Positions 5,681-63,326 of a DNA stretch of 64,000 bases are shown one piece after another; within the stretch, counting starts at the first letter, position 1; the number at the start of each line of letters is the position of its first letter. The notes beneath the pieces are model-generated. The model saw only the letters and a program-made list of their open reading frames with translations, did not search any database and was not told the origin of the DNA. The DNA comes from Rhodospirillum centenum SW (GTDB lineage Bacteria > Pseudomonadota > Alphaproteobacteria > Azospirillales > Azospirillaceae): NCBI RefSeq assembly GCF_000016185.1, contig NC_011420.2, positions 1,384,501 through 1,448,500 on the forward strand, in the 5' to 3' direction. Made by a program: the position numbers and the translations under genes.

Positions 5681-6823
5681 TCATGCCCCGGCCAGAAGCC
5701 GGCGCGCCACGATCATCCGCATGACCTGGTTGGTGCCTTCCAGGATCTGGTGGACACGCAGGTCGCGGACGAACCGTTCCACGGGGTACTCCTTGATATA
5801 ACCGTAGCCGCCGTGCAGTTGCAGCGCGTCGTTACAGACCTTGAAGCCGATGTCGGTGGCGAAGCGCTTCGCCATGGCGCAGAAGGTCGTGGCCTCCGGG
5901 TCGCCGCGGTCCAGCGCGTCGGCGGCGCGATGCACCATCAGGCGCGCCGCGTCCAGCTCCGTCGCCATGTCGGCCAGCATGAACTGCAACGCCTGGAACT
6001 CGGCGATCGGCCTGCCGAACTGCTGGCGGGCGGTCATGTGGTCGCGCGCCAATTCAAGGCAGGTGCGCGCGCCCCCCAGCGAACAGGCGGCGATGTTGAT
6101 GCGGCCGCCGTCCAGCCCCTTCATGGCGAAGCGGAAGCCCTCCCCCTCCTCGCCCAGCCGGTTCTCCACCGGCACGCGGCAGTCCTCGAAGATCACCTGC
6201 GCGGTGGGCTGGCTGTTCCAGCCCATCTTGCGCTCCTTCTTGCCGAAGGAGAGGCCGGGCGTCCCCTTCTCCACCACCAGCGCGGAGATGCCCTTCGGCC
6301 CCGGCCCGCCGGTGCGGCACATCACGATGTAGAGGTCGGTCGCACCGGCGCCGGAGATGAAGGCCTTGGTGCCGTTCAGCACGTAGTGGTCGCCCACCCG
6401 CTCGGCCCGGGTCCGCAGGGAGGCGGCGTCGGAGCCGCTGCCCGGCTCCGTCAGGCAGTAGCTGCCCAGCCGGTCCATGGCGAACATCGACGGCAGCCAG
6501 CGCGCCCGCTGCGCGGGAGAGCCGAAGCTGTCGATCATCCACGACACCATGTTGTGGATGGTCAGATAGGCGGCGGTGGAGGGACAGGCGGCCGACAGTT
6601 CCTCGAACAGGATCGCCGCGTCCAGCCGCGTGAGGCCGGTACCGCCATGTTCCTCCCGGCAGTAGAGGCCGGCGAAGCCCAGCGCGGCCGCCTTGCGCAG
6701 CACGTCCACGGGGAAGATGCCCTGCTCGTCCCACGCCGCGGCGTTCGGGGCGAGATGCTCGCGCGCGAAGCCGCGGGCGAGTTCCTGGAAAGCCGTCTGG
6801 TCGGGGGAGAGGCGGAAGTCCAT
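5681..6823 (-). CDS. Acyl-CoA dehydrogenase, probably isobutyryl-CoA dehydrogenase
   Basis: FAD-dependent acyl-CoA dehydrogenase, 380 residues from the ATG at 6823 ([13 protein letters not shown]). The open frame continues upstream through the 14-bp repeat, but that part is low-complexity and not protein-like. Signature segments are [16 protein letters not shown] for FAD binding, and [32 protein letters not shown], whose LEGTNQ glutamate is the catalytic base in the short-chain/branched group. Next to 3-hydroxyisobutyryl-CoA hydrolase and mmsB, the most economical substrate is isobutyryl-CoA (valine route); a 2-methylbutyryl- or short-chain role cannot be excluded. Confidence 0.9.
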
Positions 6824-12301: not shown

Positions 12302-13147
12302 TCAGTCCGCCGCCAGGAAGTCGCGCACGAGGCGGATCTGCGCCGGGTCCATCAGGGCCGGCGCATGGCCGGCGCCCGGAATCTCCGCCAGCCGGGTCGG
12401 TGGCCCCTCCACCAGCATGCGCTGTGCCGTCTCCGACAGCAGCAGATCGGACTCGGCCCCGCGGATCACCAGCACCGGGCAGCGGATCGCCTTCCACACG
12501 GGCCACAGGTCCACGTCCGCGACCGGCTGCCCCTGGAAGGCGCGGGCGATGCCGGTGTCGTAGGCCAGGGTCAGCCGACCGTCCGGCAGTGTCTGCGCCC
12601 CGTGTTCGGCCAGATGCCGCCACTGCGCGTCGGAAAGCGCGCCGAAGCCGGCATAGGTGGCGCGCAGCCACGCCTCCACCGCCGCAAGGTCGGGGAAGGT
12701 CTGCGCACTGCCGACATAGGCCGCGATCCGCTCCAGCGCCGCCTTCGGCACGAAGGGGCCGACATCGTTCACCACCAGCCGGCGGATCGGACTGTTCGGC
12801 TGGGCCGCCAGCAGCATGCCGATCAGCCCGCCCATGGAGGTGCCGACCCAGTCCACCTGTTCCACGTCCAGCCGCGCGATCAGGGTCGCCATGTCGGACA
12901 GGTACTGCGGATAGCCGTAGAGGTCGGGGTTGCCGAGCCGGTCGCTGCGGCCCCGCCCCACCACGTCCGGGCAGACGACCCGGGCCGGCAGCGCCGCGGC
13001 GAGGTCGTGCGCCAGCGGGTCGAAGTCGCGGCCGTTGCGCGTCAGCCCGTGGACGCAGACGACGGTGCGGGGACCCGCGCCCCATTCGGTGTAGGCCACG
13101 CTGTGAAAGCCGGTGGCGGACAGGCCGAGGAAGGAACGCTGCTGCAT
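12302..13147 (-). CDS. Alpha/beta fold hydrolase
   Basis: 281 residues from the ATG at 13147 (MQQRSFLGLSATGFHSVAY); the frame runs further upstream but into sequence belonging to the neighbouring decarboxylase region. Motifs: CVHGLTRNGRDFDPLA (oxyanion), WVGTSMGGLIGMLLA (nucleophile serine), IRGAESDLLL (acid) and IPGAGHAPALMD (histidine). Cytosolic. Family members range from esterases to C-C hydrolases, so the substrate cannot be read from sequence. It is spaced between a PLP decarboxylase (upstream) and a YheT-like hydrolase (downstream) on the same strand. Confidence 0.86.
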   Translation of the reverse strand: MQQRSFLGLSATGFHSVAYTEWGAGPRTVVCVHGLTRNGRDFDPLAHDLAAALPARVVCPDVVGRGRSDRLGNPDLYGYPQYLSDMATLIARLDVEQVDWVGTSMGGLIGMLLAAQPNSPIRRLVVNDVGPFVPKAALERIAAYVGSAQTFPDLAAVEAWLRATYAGFGALSDAQWRHLAEHGAQTLPDGRLTLAYDTGIARAFQGQPVADVDLWPVWKAIRCPVLVIRGAESDLLLSETAQRMLVEGPPTRLAEIPGAGHAPALMDPAQIRLVRDFLAAD

Positions 13148-13211
13148 CGGGGGATCGCCGCTGTCGGAGCCTCTGCGTCGATTACCACGGGCGCGGCCGG
13201 ACCGGAACCGC

Positions 13212-14399
13212 TCATGCAGCCGCGCGCTGGTGATGATCGGGCACCCGCATCGCCGCGGTGGGCAGGAAGGCGGAATCGTCCACCCGGACGGCGCGGCCGG
13301 GGAAGAAGCCGTTGAACCAGGTGCGGGTGGCGGTCGTGTAGGCGCCACACTGGCCGATCTCGATCCAGTCGCCCTCCCGGATGTCCGCCGGCAGCATGTA
13401 GGGGCCGGGCATCTGGTCGTAGCAGTCGCAGGTGGGACCGAACAGGCCGAAGGGCACCAGCTCGTCGGAGAAGGCGTGGCCGGGCCGGACCGCCCGCATC
13501 GGCATGTGGATGCCCGGGAACTTCAGGTCGCAGAGGCTGCCGTAGAGCCCGTCGTTGAGATAGAGGTGGCGGTCGCGCCGAAGTTCGACCCGCACCACCA
13601 GCGAGGCGCCGGTCGCCACCAGCCCACGGCCGGGCTCGCACCAGACGGCGCAGCCCTCCGGCCGCCGCAGCGTCTCCAGCCCGGTGCGGATCGCGGCCAT
13701 GTAATCCTCCAGCGGCGGCGGTTCATGCCCGACATAGGCGGTGGGAAAGCCGCCGCCGACGTCGATCACCGCCAGCTCGGCACCGGCAAGGTCCTGACAG
13801 GCCGCGGCCAGCCGCAGCGCCGCCGTATAGCTGCCGGGGTTCAGGCACTGCGAGCCGACATGGAAGCAGAGTCCGACCTTCAGCCCCCGCCCGGCCGCCG
13901 TCCGCAGCAGGTCCGCCCCCTGCTCCACCGTGCAGCCGAACTTGCCGCCCAGATCGTAGACGGCCGCGCCGCGCGCCGTGGCAAGACGGACGACGACGGT
14001 CACGTCGCGGGCACCGCCGGTCTCCGCCGTCACCTTCTCCAGCTCGTCCCGGTGATCGACGACAAAGGTCCGCACCCCCATCCGCTCGTAGGCGTCGCGC
14101 ACGGCACCGCGCTGTTTGACCGGATGCATGAAGTAGCAGCCGCCGGCGGCGAAGTGGCCCTTCACCAGCTCGATCTCCTGCAAGGACGCCGTGTCGAAGT
14201 GGCGGATGCCGCCGGCCCAGAGCGCATCCAGCACCAGCGGCTCGGGATTGCATTTCACGGCGTAGAGGACATGCCCCGGAAAGGCCGAGACGAACTGCCG
14301 CGCGCGGGCCGTCAGCTCGTCGGGACGGTAGCAGTAGACGGGCTCTTCCGGTTCCAGGGCCGCGACCATGGCGTCGGCATCGGCGAATCTCGGCAGCAT
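13212..14399 (-). CDS. Ornithine/lysine decarboxylase-type PLP enzyme (fold III, group IV)
   Basis: 395 residues, start at 14399 (MLPRFADADAMV). Decarboxylates ornithine, and in some alphaproteobacterial relatives also lysine, to putrescine or cadaverine for polyamine synthesis. YAVKCNPEP carries the PLP lysine (about residue 49). FHVGSQCLNP and DVGGGFPTAY bind the cofactor phosphate, and CEPGRGLV follows. FGPTCDCYDQM contains the active-site cysteine typical of eukaryotic-type ornithine decarboxylases. These features separate it from diaminopimelate decarboxylase. Substrate preference between ornithine and lysine cannot be judged here. Confidence 0.88.
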   Translation of the reverse strand: MLPRFADADAMVAALEPEEPVYCYRPDELTARARQFVSAFPGHVLYAVKCNPEPLVLDALWAGGIRHFDTASLQEIELVKGHFAAGGCYFMHPVKQRGAVRDAYERMGVRTFVVDHRDELEKVTAETGGARDVTVVVRLATARGAAVYDLGGKFGCTVEQGADLLRTAAGRGLKVGLCFHVGSQCLNPGSYTAALRLAAACQDLAGAELAVIDVGGGFPTAYVGHEPPPLEDYMAAIRTGLETLRRPEGCAVWCEPGRGLVATGASLVVRVELRRDRHLYLNDGLYGSLCDLKFPGIHMPMRAVRPGHAFSDELVPFGLFGPTCDCYDQMPGPYMLPADIREGDWIEIGQCGAYTTATRTWFNGFFPGRAVRVDDSAFLPTAAMRVPDHHQRAAA

Positions 14400-48198: not shown

Positions 48199-48316
48199 GG
48201 TCGTTGCGACTACGTCTTTCGGGATGCTGCGGGTTCAGCCCCCGCGATACCAGGAGCAACCACCAGATATTGGTAACACCCGCGTCGTCGCCGCGCCTAG
48301 GGCAAATTTTACCCCC

Positions 48317-54127: not shown

Positions 54128-55336
54128 CTACGGCTTAAGGTTCTCGGCGATGCCGTGCAGACCGGCGGCACGCAGAAGGCCCTGACGGTAGCGGACCTCC
54201 CGCGCGGCGATGGCCTTCTCCGCCGCCTCGCCCCCCAGGATCGTACCGTCGTCCCGTTGCAGCCGGCGCACCACCATCGCCAGCAGGCCCGGCTCATCCG
54301 CCGCGTTGAGCTTGTCCAGCGGCCGGTCGGCCGCCATCTCCTTGAGCAGCCGCGCCAGCAGCACCTCCCGCGTCTCCGGCAGCGTGCCGGCATCAAGCAG
54401 GGCGGCGATCCGGCCCAGCCGCGGGTCGCGGGTCCGCGCCGCGCCGTCGGGGCGAGCGTTCAGAAGATCGGCGAGATCGGCCAGGAAATGCCCGAGACTG
54501 GGCAGCGCCCCGAACAGGTCCTGCACCACCTCCCCGAACGAGAGCAGGTCGGCCACCAACCCGTCGATCAGGTGGAGCGATTCCGGATCGGCGGCGGACC
54601 CGGCGAGATCCAGCACCACCTCCAGCCGGCCGGCCAGGGAACGCTGGTCGGCCAGCCAGGCGCTGACCTGGGCGCGGAGCACATAGTCGAACCGGGCCGG
54701 ATCGACGAGACCCCGGAGCCGCACGGCGAAGGCATCCAGGTCGTGGCCGTGAAAGGCCGGCAGCCGCTTGCGCTCCAGCGTGAAGTCCCGGGCCCGGGAC
54801 ACCGCCTCGTCCACCAGCCGATTGAGCACGTTGACCCGCTCGCGGGTCGCCTCGCCCGTCGTCTTCGCCTGGGCGGTGCCGACGCGGTGGATGGCCGCCA
54901 TCAGGAGAGCGCTGGACTCCTGGAGACGGCGGACATGGCTCCAGGCATGCAGCAGTTCCGTCGGCGTCACCTGCTGCCGGGTCAGATATTCCATCAGGGT
55001 AAGGGCGATCAGCCGGCGGCTGTCGGGGCCGAAGAAATCGTCGATCGAGGCACAGACCGCCACCTCCCCCCGGGGCGAGCGGACAGCCGGCGGGCGCTCC
55101 GCCGCCGGCGGGGCCGTCTCCTCGAAGACCACGCGCTGGGTGGTGAAACCGTTGAGCATGCTGCGCGACTGCACCACCTTCGCAGCCGTCCACCGGGTAT
55201 CGCCCAGCATCTCGCGGGCGCGTGCCACGGCCGCTCCCTCGGTCGGGCAGACACGGTCGAGCAGCCAGCGCCCGTCGCGCTGGCCCAGCACCTCGAAACT
55301 CAGGATGCGGTTCCTGACCCAGTCCAGCACCGGCAC
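54128..55336 (-). CDS. Uncharacterised conserved protein
   Basis: 402 residues, convergent with sciP. No signal peptide or membrane helix. N-terminal part (1-80) contains RILSFEVLGQRDGRWLLDRVCPTEGAAVARAREMLGDTRWTAAKVVQSRSM, resembling a small beta-barrel repeat. The rest is strongly helical (about 130-400; leucine and arginine-rich, e.g. LRAQVSAWLADQRSLAGRLEVVLDLAGSA). No family recognised. It is probably an independent unit upstream of der on the same strand (68 bp gap). Confidence 0.75.
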   Translation of the reverse strand: MPVLDWVRNRILSFEVLGQRDGRWLLDRVCPTEGAAVARAREMLGDTRWTAAKVVQSRSMLNGFTTQRVVFEETAPPAAERPPAVRSPRGEVAVCASIDDFFGPDSRRLIALTLMEYLTRQQVTPTELLHAWSHVRRLQESSALLMAAIHRVGTAQAKTTGEATRERVNVLNRLVDEAVSRARDFTLERKRLPAFHGHDLDAFAVRLRGLVDPARFDYVLRAQVSAWLADQRSLAGRLEVVLDLAGSAADPESLHLIDGLVADLLSFGEVVQDLFGALPSLGHFLADLADLLNARPDGAARTRDPRLGRIAALLDAGTLPETREVLLARLLKEMAADRPLDKLNAADEPGLLAMVVRRLQRDDGTILGGEAAEKAIAAREVRYRQGLLRAAGLHGIAENLKP

Positions 55337-59662: not shown

Positions 59663-60334
59663 TCAGGATACCGGCCGGTCTCCTGGGTCGGGCAGTTCCA
59701 TGCGCTCCGCCGCGACCATGGCCTGGGTGCGGTTGCGGACACCCAGCGCCTTGAAGACAGCCGTGATATGGATCTTCACGGTACCGATGCTGATCCCCAG
59801 GGCGTCCGCGATGTCGTTGTTGCTCCAGCGGTCACGGATCATCGCCAGCACGACACGCTGGCGCGGGGTCAGGTGTTCGGCGGCATCCTCGCGGAAGAAG
59901 CCGGCGGGAACCGGCCCGGCCGAGGTCATCAAGCGCTCGCGGCCGGCACGCAGGCCGAGCAGGGGCGGAATGTAGATACCGCCATTGCGCACCGTCTCCA
60001 GGGCCTGAGCCAGCATGTCCACGGCATCCCCCCGCCAGAGATAGCCCGAGGCGCCCTCCTTGAGCACACTGCGCAGGCGTTCGGGTTCTTCCCCGCCGAC
60101 GACGAGAATCGAGAGCGCCGAGAACTGGCGGCGCAGAGTGGCGATCTCCCCCGGCGCGAAACCCGGCAGGGCCTCGGCAACGATGGCGATGTCGGGCGTC
60201 TGCGCAGCACAGAGCGGATGCAGGTCGGTCCAGGCGGCCGCCTCGGCAAACGTGAACGCGCCGCCACGTTCGCCGGCAGCGCGTTTCAGACGGAGTCTGA
60301 TGGTGGGATCAGGGTCGGCAATCAGCAGGTGCAT
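59663..60334 (-). CDS. NarL/FixJ-type regulator with degenerate receiver domain
   Basis: 223 residues from the ATG at 60334; a GTG at 60358 extends it by 8 residues, and neither has a good Shine-Dalgarno. The N-terminal receiver-like domain keeps the acidic start (LIADPDPTIRLRL) but the phosphoacceptor position reads IAIVAEALPG (Asp replaced by Ala) and the conserved lysine region is GYLWRGD. The C-terminal LuxR helix-turn-helix is intact: LTPRQRVVLAMIRDRWSNNDIADALGISIGTVKIHITAVFKALGVRNRTQAMV. It therefore probably works without phosphorylation. Divergent from the next LuxR-type gene across about 580 bp. Confidence 0.85.
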   Translation of the reverse strand: MHLLIADPDPTIRLRLKRAAGERGGAFTFAEAAAWTDLHPLCAAQTPDIAIVAEALPGFAPGEIATLRRQFSALSILVVGGEEPERLRSVLKEGASGYLWRGDAVDMLAQALETVRNGGIYIPPLLGLRAGRERLMTSAGPVPAGFFREDAAEHLTPRQRVVLAMIRDRWSNNDIADALGISIGTVKIHITAVFKALGVRNRTQAMVAAERMELPDPGDRPVS

Positions 60335-60915
60335 GGCGGAAAGGTAACTGGCGCTCACGGGAGACCAAGCGTTCAGGGGATGCAGATGAGGTTCTTATAA
60401 CCCGCGCGGGATTTTCATACAAGTTTATGCATGCATATATCTGCTGACTGCCATGCCGGGGATTCCCAGAGGTTTCCGGCAGATCACGGCTGTTCCGCAC
60501 ACCCGGGCGCGCAACGCAGCGGTAGTTCCCTACCCCGACCGAACAGTCGTGGAGCATCGTTGCCGCAGGACATCCGCTCGTCAATCGCTGTTGCCGACCG
60601 ACGGATTATCCCCAGATATGACACGATCACCGTTTGCTTGGCTTGAGCGATCCCTGTCCGGCGCTATCGTCAGCGTCGGAACAACGGGAGCGCAGTATCT
60701 TTTAGAAAGATCAACTTTGAAACCATATCGTTTCGAGCAGATTGCTATTCAGAAGTATTAAGCTAGTGGGTGATTTCTACCGAGCTAATGACAAAACGCT
60801 CCAGCGAAATGTTCACGGCAAGCGCGCATACTTTCAGAAGAGCGATGACATGGATGCCCAGAACGATCGGTCAGCGGACCCCGCCAGCAAGGCACGACGA
60901 GGAAAGGTCAGCACC
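60335..60915. other. AT-richer divergent region between two LuxR-type genes
   Basis: About 580 bases. Two palindromes near the minus-strand gene: CCCGCGCGGG at 60401-60410 and TATGCATGCATA at 60426-60437. The second half (60690-60850) has GC content well below average with runs such as AAAGATCAACTTTGAAACC. No gene or RNA seen; plus-strand frames here lack ribosome sites. Confidence 0.4.
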
Positions 60916-61578
60916 ATGCAGGTGTGTCTTGTGCCGGGGAACGAGGTCGTGGCGAGCCAGCTCCTGGCGTCCCTGGACAAGGAGAGCCGGCATCGCGTCA
61001 CGGTCTGCCGCGATATCGCGGAGCTGAGTCAGGCGACAGCTACGCCGGATGTGATCCTGATCGATGTGCAGCAGTTCGCCGCACTCCGGGAGAACGAGCC
61101 GATGGTCTATCTGCGGCTGTCCCGCCGCAGCCGGATCATCGTCATCCTGAGCAGCCGGGAACTGCTGGACGCGGCCCACATCCTGGCCTTCGCGGACGCC
61201 TGGGTGTTCGAGGACATCAATCTGAACCGCGTGAACGAGCTGATCGACCTGGGTGTCGAGGGGCACTGCATCCTGCCCAGACAGTTCCTGTCGCGCATGG
61301 GTGTGGACGAGATCCGACTGACGCTGCTGCCCCGGCTGACCGAGGTGGAATTCCGCTGCCTCCAGCTTCTCGGCCAAGGCCTGAACAACCGTACCATCGC
61401 GGAAGGTCTGAACCTTTCGGAGGCCGTCATCAAGTCGATGGTGCGCAGCGTTCTGGCGAAGCTCCATTTCCGCAACAGGACGGAAGCCGGCGTGTTCGCC
61501 GCCCGGCAGCAGCATGCGCTGCATTCCGCGCGGCAGTCCGACATCCGCACCGGCACCGACGAAGCCCGCTCGGCCTGA
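60916..61578 (+). CDS. NarL/FixJ-type regulator with atypical receiver domain
   Basis: 220 residues from the ATG at 60916, preceded by GGAAAGG at 8 bases; the frame is open from 60742 and an ATG at 60850 is a second option. The receiver-like part has an aspartate at the phosphoacceptor site (VILIDVQQF) but lacks the acidic pair (VCLVPGNEVV) and the conserved lysine. The LuxR HTH reads LTEVEFRCLQLLGQGLNNRTIAEGLNLSEAVIKSMVRSVLAKLHFRNRTEAGVF. Phosphorylation is unlikely. No kinase nearby. Confidence 0.83.
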   Translation: MQVCLVPGNEVVASQLLASLDKESRHRVTVCRDIAELSQATATPDVILIDVQQFAALRENEPMVYLRLSRRSRIIVILSSRELLDAAHILAFADAWVFEDINLNRVNELIDLGVEGHCILPRQFLSRMGVDEIRLTLLPRLTEVEFRCLQLLGQGLNNRTIAEGLNLSEAVIKSMVRSVLAKLHFRNRTEAGVFAARQQHALHSARQSDIRTGTDEARSA

Positions 61579-61807
61579 GCGGGCAGGACAGGCGCGTCGC
61601 CGGAGGCGGACGGAAAACGGGAAGAGAACAGGAAACGGCGCAGGCCCTGGGGCACTGCGCCGTCATCCGGATTCCCGGACGCTTCCCGGGGAGAGATTCG
61701 TTGCCCGACGGGCCCCGCTGCACGGCGCCCCCCTTCAGCGTCGTCTCCTCCGGCGACTCCGGAGCCTCCGCCCGCCCGGAAAGGACAGGCAGAGGCGCCC
61801 GGGCGGA

Positions 61808-62494
61808 TCAGCCGACCGCGGCGGCAGGGGCAGCAGCGCCGGTGAACTCTCCGCCGATACCGTTGTTGAGCGCCCAGATCGCGGCCTGTGTCCGGTTCGA
61901 GGCGTTGATCTTGCGCAGCAGGCTCTTGAGGTGGACCTTCACGGTCGCCTCGGTGATGTTCAGATGGTTGGCGATCATCTTGTTGCTGTCGCCGTTGAGC
62001 AGGCAGCGCAGGATCTGGATCTCCCGCTGTGACAGCCCCTTGCGCGAGACCGGCATCTCCAGCCCGTTGCCGTTCACCCGGCCGCTGATGAGCAGGGCTG
62101 CGAGGTGCGTGGGAAACACCTTCTCTCCCATCATCACCAGACGCAGGGACTGGGTCAGGGCATCCGAGGACAGATCCTTCATCAGATAGCCGTCGGCCCC
62201 GGCTTCCAGCGCATTGGAAAGGCGCCGGGTGCAGAGATCCGTGGTCAGGACGACCATGCGGGAATTCGGCAGCGCCTGGCGCAGGCGGCGCATCGCCTCT
62301 GCCTCCTCCTCACCACCATTGACGAGATCGAGCAGGATGAGGTCGGGCTTCAGGCCTTGATCGGCAACCGTGACCCCCTCACGCACATTGCTCGCCTCGG
62401 CGACGATCTTGAAGGGAGATTCGTCGAGAAGCCGCTTCAGCCCCTCGCGGAAAAGCTTGTTCGCATCAATGAGGAAGGCAGTCACGTTTTCCAT
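61808..62494 (-). CDS. LuxR-type response regulator with intact receiver domain
   Basis: 228 residues, preceded by GGGAG with good spacing. The receiver domain is canonical: LIDANKLFREGL (acidic), LILLDLVNGG (phosphoacceptor Asp), VVLTTD (Thr) and GADGYLMKDLSSD (Lys). LuxR HTH: LSQREIQILRCLLNGDSNKMIANHLNITEATVKVHLKSLLRKINASNRTQAAIWALNNG. Third of three LuxR-type genes within 3 kb. Cognate histidine kinase not in the window. Confidence 0.9.
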   Translation of the reverse strand: MENVTAFLIDANKLFREGLKRLLDESPFKIVAEASNVREGVTVADQGLKPDLILLDLVNGGEEEAEAMRRLRQALPNSRMVVLTTDLCTRRLSNALEAGADGYLMKDLSSDALTQSLRLVMMGEKVFPTHLAALLISGRVNGNGLEMPVSRKGLSQREIQILRCLLNGDSNKMIANHLNITEATVKVHLKSLLRKINASNRTQAAIWALNNGIGGEFTGAAAPAAAVG

Positions 62495-63326
62495 GTTTCG
62501 CTCCCGCGCTAGTTTGGATATGGCGTTTATCGACCAGCGCCCCCTCGGGCGCCCCGTCAGGGCGTACCCCCTGCCCCTCTGTTCTTGTCGCGCTTCCGAT
62601 CCCCTCTTTCGGGCGGAAGTTACGCCGGTATCGACTGGTTTGATATCTCTCGAAGGCCTTAAATCCCGAAGGCTTTAGACCTATGACATCCTTCGGCTCA
62701 GGATATCTTATGTATTCATTCAATACCCCGACCGATTTATCATGAACCGGACGAGATCATAATTCCCGTTTTATTAGATCAAGCGCATACGTCGCCAGAA
62801 AAAACGCATCAGGCGTGCCACAGCCCGCCTTGATGCCGCCGGAATGGCCCTGACGCATCATGCTATCGACGGTGGGTCGGCGCACGGATCTGCGCAGAAA
62901 ATGCAGGGGGAAAGGGAAAAGAAACAATAAATGGTGGATGCGATTAAGCATCGCCTCCACATAAGGTACGTCCGGACGGTCTATATAGTGCGGACCGCCA
63001 TGCCTATTCCATTCTGCCGGCATTCGCCTCCGCCATCCGCTTGGCGCCCGCGTCAGAGCCGCAGGGCATATGGCGGGACGGGATATCCGGTCGGCGGCTG
63101 CCATCCAGGGCAGCAGGTCGGCAATGCCAGGGTGATTATGCCCGTCATCACGACAAGGACAGAGCATTCCAGTCAGGAATACTCCATGGCGCCATGGACA
63201 GGGACATCATCCGTCCGCACCGATGGGCAGAGCCGTATGCCAGGGAGCCGCTCCAGCGGAAGGGGAAAGGGGCCGGCGGGACGGAACGCACGCCCTGGAG
63301 CGGGCCTGCCGTTACTGCCCCTGCCG
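62495..63326. other. 830-bp gene-poor region upstream of LuxR-type regulator
   Basis: AT-richer than average. Contains near-direct repeats CGAAGGCCTTA (62651) and CGAAGGCTTTA (62668) and an inverted repeat CCGAAGG (62666-62672) / CCTTCGG (62690-62696), 150-200 bp upstream of the regulator. A 136-codon minus-strand frame (62757-63167) has cysteine/histidine/proline-rich composition and no ribosome site, so it is not called. No RNA or terminator seen. Confidence 0.45.

Follow-up and report, generated by a model that had tools for sequence, protein, structure and literature searches.

Three LuxR-type regulators at the flcA locus of Rhodospirillum centenum lack residues of the canonical receiver

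Here we analysed three neighbouring LuxR/GerE regulator genes, called A, B and C, in a 64,000-nucleotide stretch of the genome of Rhodospirillum centenum SW, a cyst-forming purple bacterium (the window; positions 1,384,501 to 1,448,500 of the single 4,355,543-bp contig NC_011420.2). The trio is the flcA locus of Azospirillaceae, as identified by published primers, and none of its three products carries all five receiver residues of a canonical NarL/FixJ regulator. FlcA is described in Azospirillum brasilense as a LuxR-UhpA type regulator of flocculation and of the formation of cyst-like cells (PMC4264754). With a confidence barely better than even, we consider that kinase-independent regulators surround FlcA, that A may act on FlcA sites, and that the three genes could form a largely kinase-independent module in the encystment network.

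The identity of the locus comes from primers printed in PMC4264754 for a flcA probe and for quantitative reverse transcription PCR of narL1. In 14 A. brasilense-type loci (L126 and L130–L142) both flcA primers face each other at the A position with at most one mismatch (both exact in 12), and both narL1 primers lie 114 bp apart inside C, also with at most one mismatch (both exact in seven), so FlcA and NarL1 are encoded on either side of B. The gene at the flcA position of L132 has 215 residues, equal to the published length of FlcA. Among 60 rows for the A position, 49 have a canonical receiver (DDDSK, in the order of the five residues that we scored: two acids, phosphoacceptor Asp, Thr/Ser and Lys), ten are degenerate and one is a shortened frame, and a canonical FlcA occupies this position in 49 of the 58 genomes carrying B. 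The shortened flcA frame (L135:4594-5100, genome G073) is one case in 58 loci. R. centenum and nine relatives supply the ten degenerate rows, two of which come from loci without B.

The FlcA orthologue of R. centenum lies at 1.754 Mb, about 0.3 Mb from the trio, and by its sequence has all five receiver residues. It shares 68% identity with the positional FlcA of G006 (genus Skermanella), and its two neighbours are constant in ten genomes (L237–L243 and L245–L247). Near it is a galU-like nucleotidyltransferase gene (Pfam NTP_transferase; L237:2653-3765, minus strand); the galU transcript of A. brasilense is reported to depend on FlcA (PMC4264754). According to PMC2890560, which refers to unpublished data, a flcA homologue of R. 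centenum appears to be involved in encystment. PMC4618731 counts FlcA among orphan response regulators, and no account of how it is switched was found in the literature searched.

Matches to Pfam GerE exceed the cut-off of 23.5 bits in all three genes (A 52.7, B 39.9 and C 75.4 bits), which bears out the first-pass annotation in placing three LuxR-type regulators here, each with its helix-turn-helix (HTH) domain kept. The R. centenum genome has just ten GerE matches, and the nearest outside the trio is more than 300 kb distant. Against the Response_reg cut-off of 30.2 bits, C scores 53.2 and A falls below at 15.7; B has no Pfam Response_reg match, and its profile aligns with NarL across B residues 62–218, that is, over receiver and HTH. 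The AlphaFold model of A has a well-formed receiver and HTH (predicted local distance difference test, pLDDT, 87.7), and that of B is poor (pLDDT 55.6). The genes are arranged A(-) B(+) C(-) (Table 1). From comparison with the starts of relatives, A most likely begins at ATG 60334, not GTG 60358, and B at ATG 60850, a longer TTG frame of B beginning at 60742.

PMC12632262 defines a receiver without any one of the five residues as a pseudo-receiver and describes such receivers as common. A reads D P A G R, with Ala for the phosphoacceptor Asp, Pro for the second acid, Gly for Thr/Ser and Arg for Lys. R. centenum B reads P G D S E, with Pro-Gly for the acidic pair, Glu for Lys, and Asp and Ser retained, and C reads D A D T K, retaining Asp, Thr and Lys with Ala as the Mg-binding second acid. 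Judged by these residues, all three are pseudo-receivers under that definition. The phosphoacceptor Asp itself is missing from A and from 50 of 58 B proteins, and is present in C and in R. centenum B. In 46 C-type rows, comprising C orthologues and close paralogues among the loci fetched by then, the second acid is Ala or Ser in every case and Asp, Thr and Lys are always kept. This rules out C as a fully intact receiver, and the first-pass claim that one member has all receiver residues is therefore wrong. Its other two descriptions hold: the member with Ala in place of the phosphoacceptor is A, which has also lost the second acid, Thr/Ser and Lys, and the member without acidic pair and Lys is B. 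Since A and B lack residues for ordinary Asp phosphorylation, kinase-independent action is likely, and the earlier suggestion of two kinase-independent members stands as a deduction from those missing residues.

Other NarL-type proteins of R. centenum were compared. All five residues are present in the FlcA orthologue (DDDSK), in a gene at 2.658 Mb and in a FixJ-like gene at 0.370 Mb, and both RC1_0848 (D H D T K) and RC1_0849 (G D D S K) are incomplete. At least one residue is thus missing from five of the eight NarL-type proteins examined, a survey that omits the GerE matches at 3.838 and 3.967 Mb, and all five belong to two LuxR clusters.

The cluster was followed through 82 Azospirillaceae genomes of 13 genera, with a threshold of E <= 1e-20 for B. 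This protein is present in 58 of the genomes and eight of the genera; in 16 further genomes of its class, all from other families (G023–G038), nine gave no match and seven a weak partial one (best E 5.6e-9). A gene of the A/FlcA type lies divergently upstream of B in all 58 B loci, and C is convergent downstream of B in 40. The conservation of B with its divergent neighbour, and of the placement of C, exceeds chance. The 18 B loci without an adjacent C are one at a contig edge (L081, G003) and 17 from Azospirillum (genus g11), of which 15 carry a C of 81% identity or more at another genomic location and two (G055 and G066) only a paralogue of about 70%.

B is a separate Azospirillaceae family, an independent pseudo-receiver regulator that is always divergent from flcA or A. 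The residue sets of its 58 members are LDGSE (42), PGDSE (5), VDGSQ (5), VSDST (2) and, once each, LDGSQ, VESAA, VDSES and TDDST. A complete phosphorylation site occurs in none and Lys in none; the phosphoacceptor position holds Gly in 48, Ser in two and Asp in eight, so that Asp cannot be essential for the family. A block around QFxALRENEPMxYLRLSRRSRI and SSRELLDAAHILAFADAWVF is almost invariant in 22 aligned sequences, and in the wider set the three Niveispirillum-type rows shown differ in its Arg-rich QFx part. Between R. centenum and three close relatives (G008, G012 and G088), receiver and HTH identities are 90–91% and 91–95% for B, 91–96% and 100% for C, and 91–95% and 100% for the FlcA orthologue; against A. 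brasilense the receivers are 70% (B), 68% (FlcA) and 80% (C) identical. Decay was rejected as a description of B in view of this receiver conservation in close relatives, two distant genomes (G022 and G089) being the exception. A search for B relatives on plasmids gave ten records, all below 60% identity and nine covering less than half of the query.

In those same three relatives the receiver of A is only 36–38% identical, against at least 90% for B, C and the FlcA orthologue, so that it alone changes fast there; its HTH is 75–78% identical. All ten A-type rows have Gly for Thr/Ser and no acid at the phosphoacceptor position, and nine have Arg for Lys. The likeness of A to FlcA lies in a shared locus, in a position on the FlcA side of the tree, and in an HTH 62% identical to that of the R. 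centenum FlcA orthologue and 64% identical to that of A. brasilense FlcA (33–35% to those of B and C). The differences are a receiver of 25–27% identity without the phosphoacceptor and most receiver residues, which by residues alone falls outside the phosphorylatable FlcA type, and the separate position of the R. centenum FlcA orthologue. Because the DNA-binding domains are of the same type, competition of A with FlcA, rather than with C, is plausible.

In the main IQ-TREE phylogeny of 91 rows (10 A, 12 B and 18 C), the A rows cluster as a clade within the FlcA side (51 rows, support 99/99; inner 47-row fork 95/89), the C rows join RC1_0848-type proteins (99/99), and the B rows form a single clade of unsure placement, its branch 5.8 changes per site long. 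The approximately unbiased (AU) test rejected A, B and C as one clade (p 1.77e-7), and with it the origin of all three from one local duplication. The first-pass annotation had proposed shared descent with stepwise loss of phosphorylation and a receiver phylogeny as the check. Here the three group with different families, the outcome named there as contrary to the proposal, and the B receiver, well conserved among close relatives, does not look eroded. In a 46-row FlcA tree, grouping A with positional FlcA was not rejected and grouping it with the 1.754-Mb orthologues was marginal (p 0.042); because of long branches, the exact placement of A is unsure.

A second divergent pair, RC1_0848 and RC1_0849 (L090:5084-5791, minus strand, and 5853-6707, plus strand; about 891–893 kb of the R. 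centenum genome, G000), combines a C-type protein with one of the FlcA side, each without one acidic receiver residue, and similar pairs exist in G008 and G012. PMC4681086 links this pair to CgrA. A third case of a C-type gene paired with one of the FlcA side is provided by paralogous Azospirillum pairs (TAN with C2).

The published names NarL and NarL1 for C are probably misleading, to judge from its score of 158.9 bits against an NCBIfam NarL equivalog cut-off of 250. Both narL1 primers lie inside C of 14 loci, RC1_1407 is called 'NarL', and the second acidic position of C holds Ala or Ser. According to PMC4264754, the narL1 transcript is higher in a flcA mutant and the NarL1 protein lower when FlcA is present; one later sentence of the same paper gives the opposite direction. 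For R. centenum, PMC4681086 reports that CgrA binds upstream of RC1_1407 and that RC1_1406 is an indirectly CgrA-regulated response regulator, and PMC4340629 reports ten transcription factors, RC1_1406 one of them, that rise as cysts develop. Two CgrA sites printed in PMC4681086 from chromatin immunoprecipitation match the genome exactly: that of RC1_1393 (flgI), at window position 48263 just before the FlgI gene, and that of RC1_0849, between the second divergent LuxR pair. As no other GerE gene lies within 300 kb, RC1_1406 and RC1_1407 should both fall in the trio. Counting genes from flgI gives A as 1404, B as 1405 and C as 1406; one extra annotated frame (for example 60453-60761) would make B 1406 and C 1407, and two would make A 1406 and B 1407, which seems to us less probable, C being the closest of the three to NarL. 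By this counting, B is probably RC1_1406 and C RC1_1407.

Candidate control elements were found in the non-coding regions (Table 1). Within three mismatches, the CATATGYCYAAWGCG element occurs in 37 of 40 C upstream regions and in none of 40 mononucleotide-shuffled regions; its seeds were taken from the same alignments and many of the regions are near-copies, which favours the count, although they span several genera. Genome-wide in six genomes, a limit of one mismatch gave eight matches, against one for a backwards control pattern: in the C promoters of four genomes (one on both strands), in one promoter of a C paralogue (L295) and at two places in or near other frames (L293 and L294). At this limit R. 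centenum, whose own copy has three mismatches, and G088 gave none. G088 has a copy with two mismatches before its flcA orthologue, one of ten such regions. The presence of CATATGYCYAAWGCG before C and before the C paralogue of an A. brasilense-type genome could reflect autoregulation or a FlcA site of C-type genes. A plain CgrA site upstream of C was rejected, since a scan of 300 distal bases of this region for TGTGA-N6-TCACA matched seven of ten letters at best; the A-B gap has no match of seven or more.

Genes recurring beside the cluster, at several though not all loci, are those for Der, BamB and YfgM on one flank and those for an AAA protein, polysaccharide export and a trehalose phosphatase on the opposite one; in L074 (G008) none of Der, BamB and YfgM was seen on the A side. 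The Poly_export and trehalose phosphatase genes near C (L073:11707-12546 and 12716-14191), recurrent in some relatives, fit a desiccation-resistant coat. Adjoining Der, a conserved 402-residue protein (54128-55336) has no Pfam match.

Table 1. Regulator genes and candidate non-coding elements of the R. centenum trio (window positions)
Feature	Position	Strand	Basis
A: FlcA-type LuxR/NarL regulator with dead receiver, 223 aa	59663..60334	-	Pfam, residues, identities, AlphaFold
B: Azospirillaceae-specific pseudo-receiver LuxR regulator, 242 aa from ATG 60850	60850..61578	+	Pfam, residues, relatives
C: NarL-like regulator, orthologue of A. brasilense narL1	61808..62494	-	Pfam, residues, tree, primers
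CATA-N6-TATG dyad near A, in the divergent A/B gap	60416..60429	.	Kept with changes, R. centenum subgroup only
TATC-N4-GATA element, A/B gap, ~240 bp before B	60607..60618	.	Kept with changes in R. centenum subgroup
TTTGC...CTTGAG element, A/B gap, ~210 bp before B	60633..60647	+	R. centenum subgroup only
Larger non-coding stretch before C with approximate limits, a candidate operator region	62600..62690	-	Conserved in close relatives, partly in Azospirillum/Skermanella
Element of CATATGYCYAAWGCG type upstream of C, 3 mismatches in R. centenum, ~190 bp before C ATG	62671..62685	-	C upstream alignments

The explanation that we favour, by the small measure stated at the outset, runs as follows. 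In R. centenum and its close relatives the flcA position carries, in A, a FlcA-type DNA-binding domain behind a dead receiver, and A probably works without a kinase on FlcA DNA sites, as a competitor of FlcA or in a mixed dimer with it. The activity of B is probably set by the amount made, as the published rise of RC1_1406 in cysts suggests, together with a partner or ligand, and not by phosphate. C is NarL1, whose expression is lowered by FlcA in A. brasilense; if C is RC1_1407, CgrA binds upstream of it in R. centenum. A, B and C would then make up a local module of regulators that serves encystment largely without kinases.

Several observations weigh against this explanation. C may still be phosphorylated, and R. 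centenum B retains Asp and Ser. Descent of A from the flcA copy at the locus was not rejected, no more than that (AU p 0.32), and the RC1_1406 and RC1_1407 tags depend on a count that, taken straight, is off by one. CATATGYCYAAWGCG was not found in the A-B or flcA-B gaps examined, where its best matches have 5–6 mismatches in 11 of 11, so that one DNA site common to the A-B gap and the C promoter was rejected; the element is also absent before the 1.754-Mb flcA orthologue of R. centenum. The A-type gene is kept in six genus g12 genomes without B, two of which were checked and are A-C tandems, indicating that B is dispensable for the persistence of A or C, and some genomes without B either lost it or never had it. 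Finally, B is only 41% and 44% identical in the receiver (67% and 64% in the HTH) to its counterparts in G022 and G089, where the C receiver holds 80% and 77%, so that B appears less constrained in that branch.

Other explanations were weighed against the same data. The adjacency of three NarL/LuxR-type genes, two of them without key phosphorylation residues, fits the first-pass picture of local-duplication paralogues that lose phosphorylation stepwise, the two degenerate ones pairing with or competing against an intact C, but the rejected A+B+C clade, membership of different subfamilies, HTH identities among the three of just 33–38%, the well-conserved B receiver and the acidic residue missing from C itself leave this very improbable. 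Hardly less improbable is that A is a dying gene, the copy at the locus having lost its receiver and drifted without function because FlcA works elsewhere. The long branch of A and its receiver, 28–38% identical between R. centenum and seven relatives, would fit this; over the same pairs, however, the HTH is 71–78% identical, the Gly and Arg replacements recur, the linker motif LMTxAGPVPAGFFRE is present in ten of ten rows, the modelled receiver and HTH are well formed, and the frame is open in all ten genomes examined, beside B in eight and C in two. We also think it quite unlikely that each gene is an ordinary two-component regulator, in which orphan kinases would phosphorylate C, and B at the Asp it retains, and the lost residues would be of little consequence. 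The Asp, Thr and Lys of every C-type row, the Asp and Ser of R. centenum B and the 55 histidine kinases reported for R. centenum (PMC4340629) would suit it, but most B proteins have Gly or Ser for that Asp and all lack Lys, and Pfam recognised no kinase among 12 proteins including the three regulators, in a scan that was not exhaustive.

Some of these data also bear on how B might be switched. A ligand-switched regulator of the VpsT/CsgD kind, with a small molecule (the cGMP of R. centenum encystment or cyclic di-GMP, c-di-GMP) or a protein binding a conserved pseudo-receiver face, is doubtful, though less so than the preceding alternatives. VpsT of Vibrio cholerae, a pseudo-receiver LuxR protein responding to c-di-GMP, resembles B in joining a receiver-like domain to a LuxR HTH. 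The near-invariant Arg-rich block, despite its differing Niveispirillum-type rows, and the good conservation of the B receiver in close relatives while its phosphorylation residues vary also point this way. A Foldseek search with the B model found NarL, with VpsT at ranks 2–5, but given the low pLDDT of that model its ranks carry little weight. The VpsT c-di-GMP motif is W[FLM][TS]R. It is absent from R. centenum B, whose sole Trp lies in DAWVFED, and the conserved block is equally explicable as a dimer face. A broader proposal, which we hold unlikely, makes the flcA locus a phosphorylation-independent developmental switch of Azospirillaceae. B would found a new pseudo-receiver class, its conserved Arg-rich face recognising a small molecule or a partner, and would pair with the FlcA-type protein whose gene lies on the other side of the common promoter region; in the R. 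centenum lineage a receiver-dead replacement of FlcA would have turned a kinase-fed switch into an expression-fed one that decides on cyst formation.

FlcA is a known regulator of cyst-like differentiation in Azospirillum, and two further conserved regulators are now placed at its locus. The receivers of at least two members of the trio seem unfit for ordinary phosphate signalling, suggesting that part of the control over dormancy genes bypasses kinases. A lineage whose protein at the flcA position has a DNA-binding domain and no phosphorylation site offers a natural experiment on a two-component regulator becoming kinase-independent. These findings open the way to specific binding and deletion tests in a laboratory species that is amenable to genetics. 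Searches of PubMed Central, whose results did not include the original 1998 flcA paper, turned up no account of B, nor of A in its place at flcA.

Orphan atypical NarL-type regulators in development are already known from Streptomyces, where BldM and WhiI, of the NarL/FixJ type, are described as forming a heterodimer (PMC4125116). The trio resembles this pair in being NarL-type, in its conserved context, in a degenerate phosphorylation pocket and in a role in forming dormant cells; WhiI lacks Lys and one of the acidic pair, and R. centenum B lacks Lys and both acids. The two systems belong to different phyla. RcsA/RcsB, in which an auxiliary LuxR protein alters the binding of a response regulator (PMC4125116), offers a model in which A or B would assist a canonical regulator near polysaccharide genes, with the difference that the N-terminus of RcsA is described in that paper as unrelated to receivers, whereas the N-terminus of A has, in its AlphaFold model, a recognisable receiver fold.

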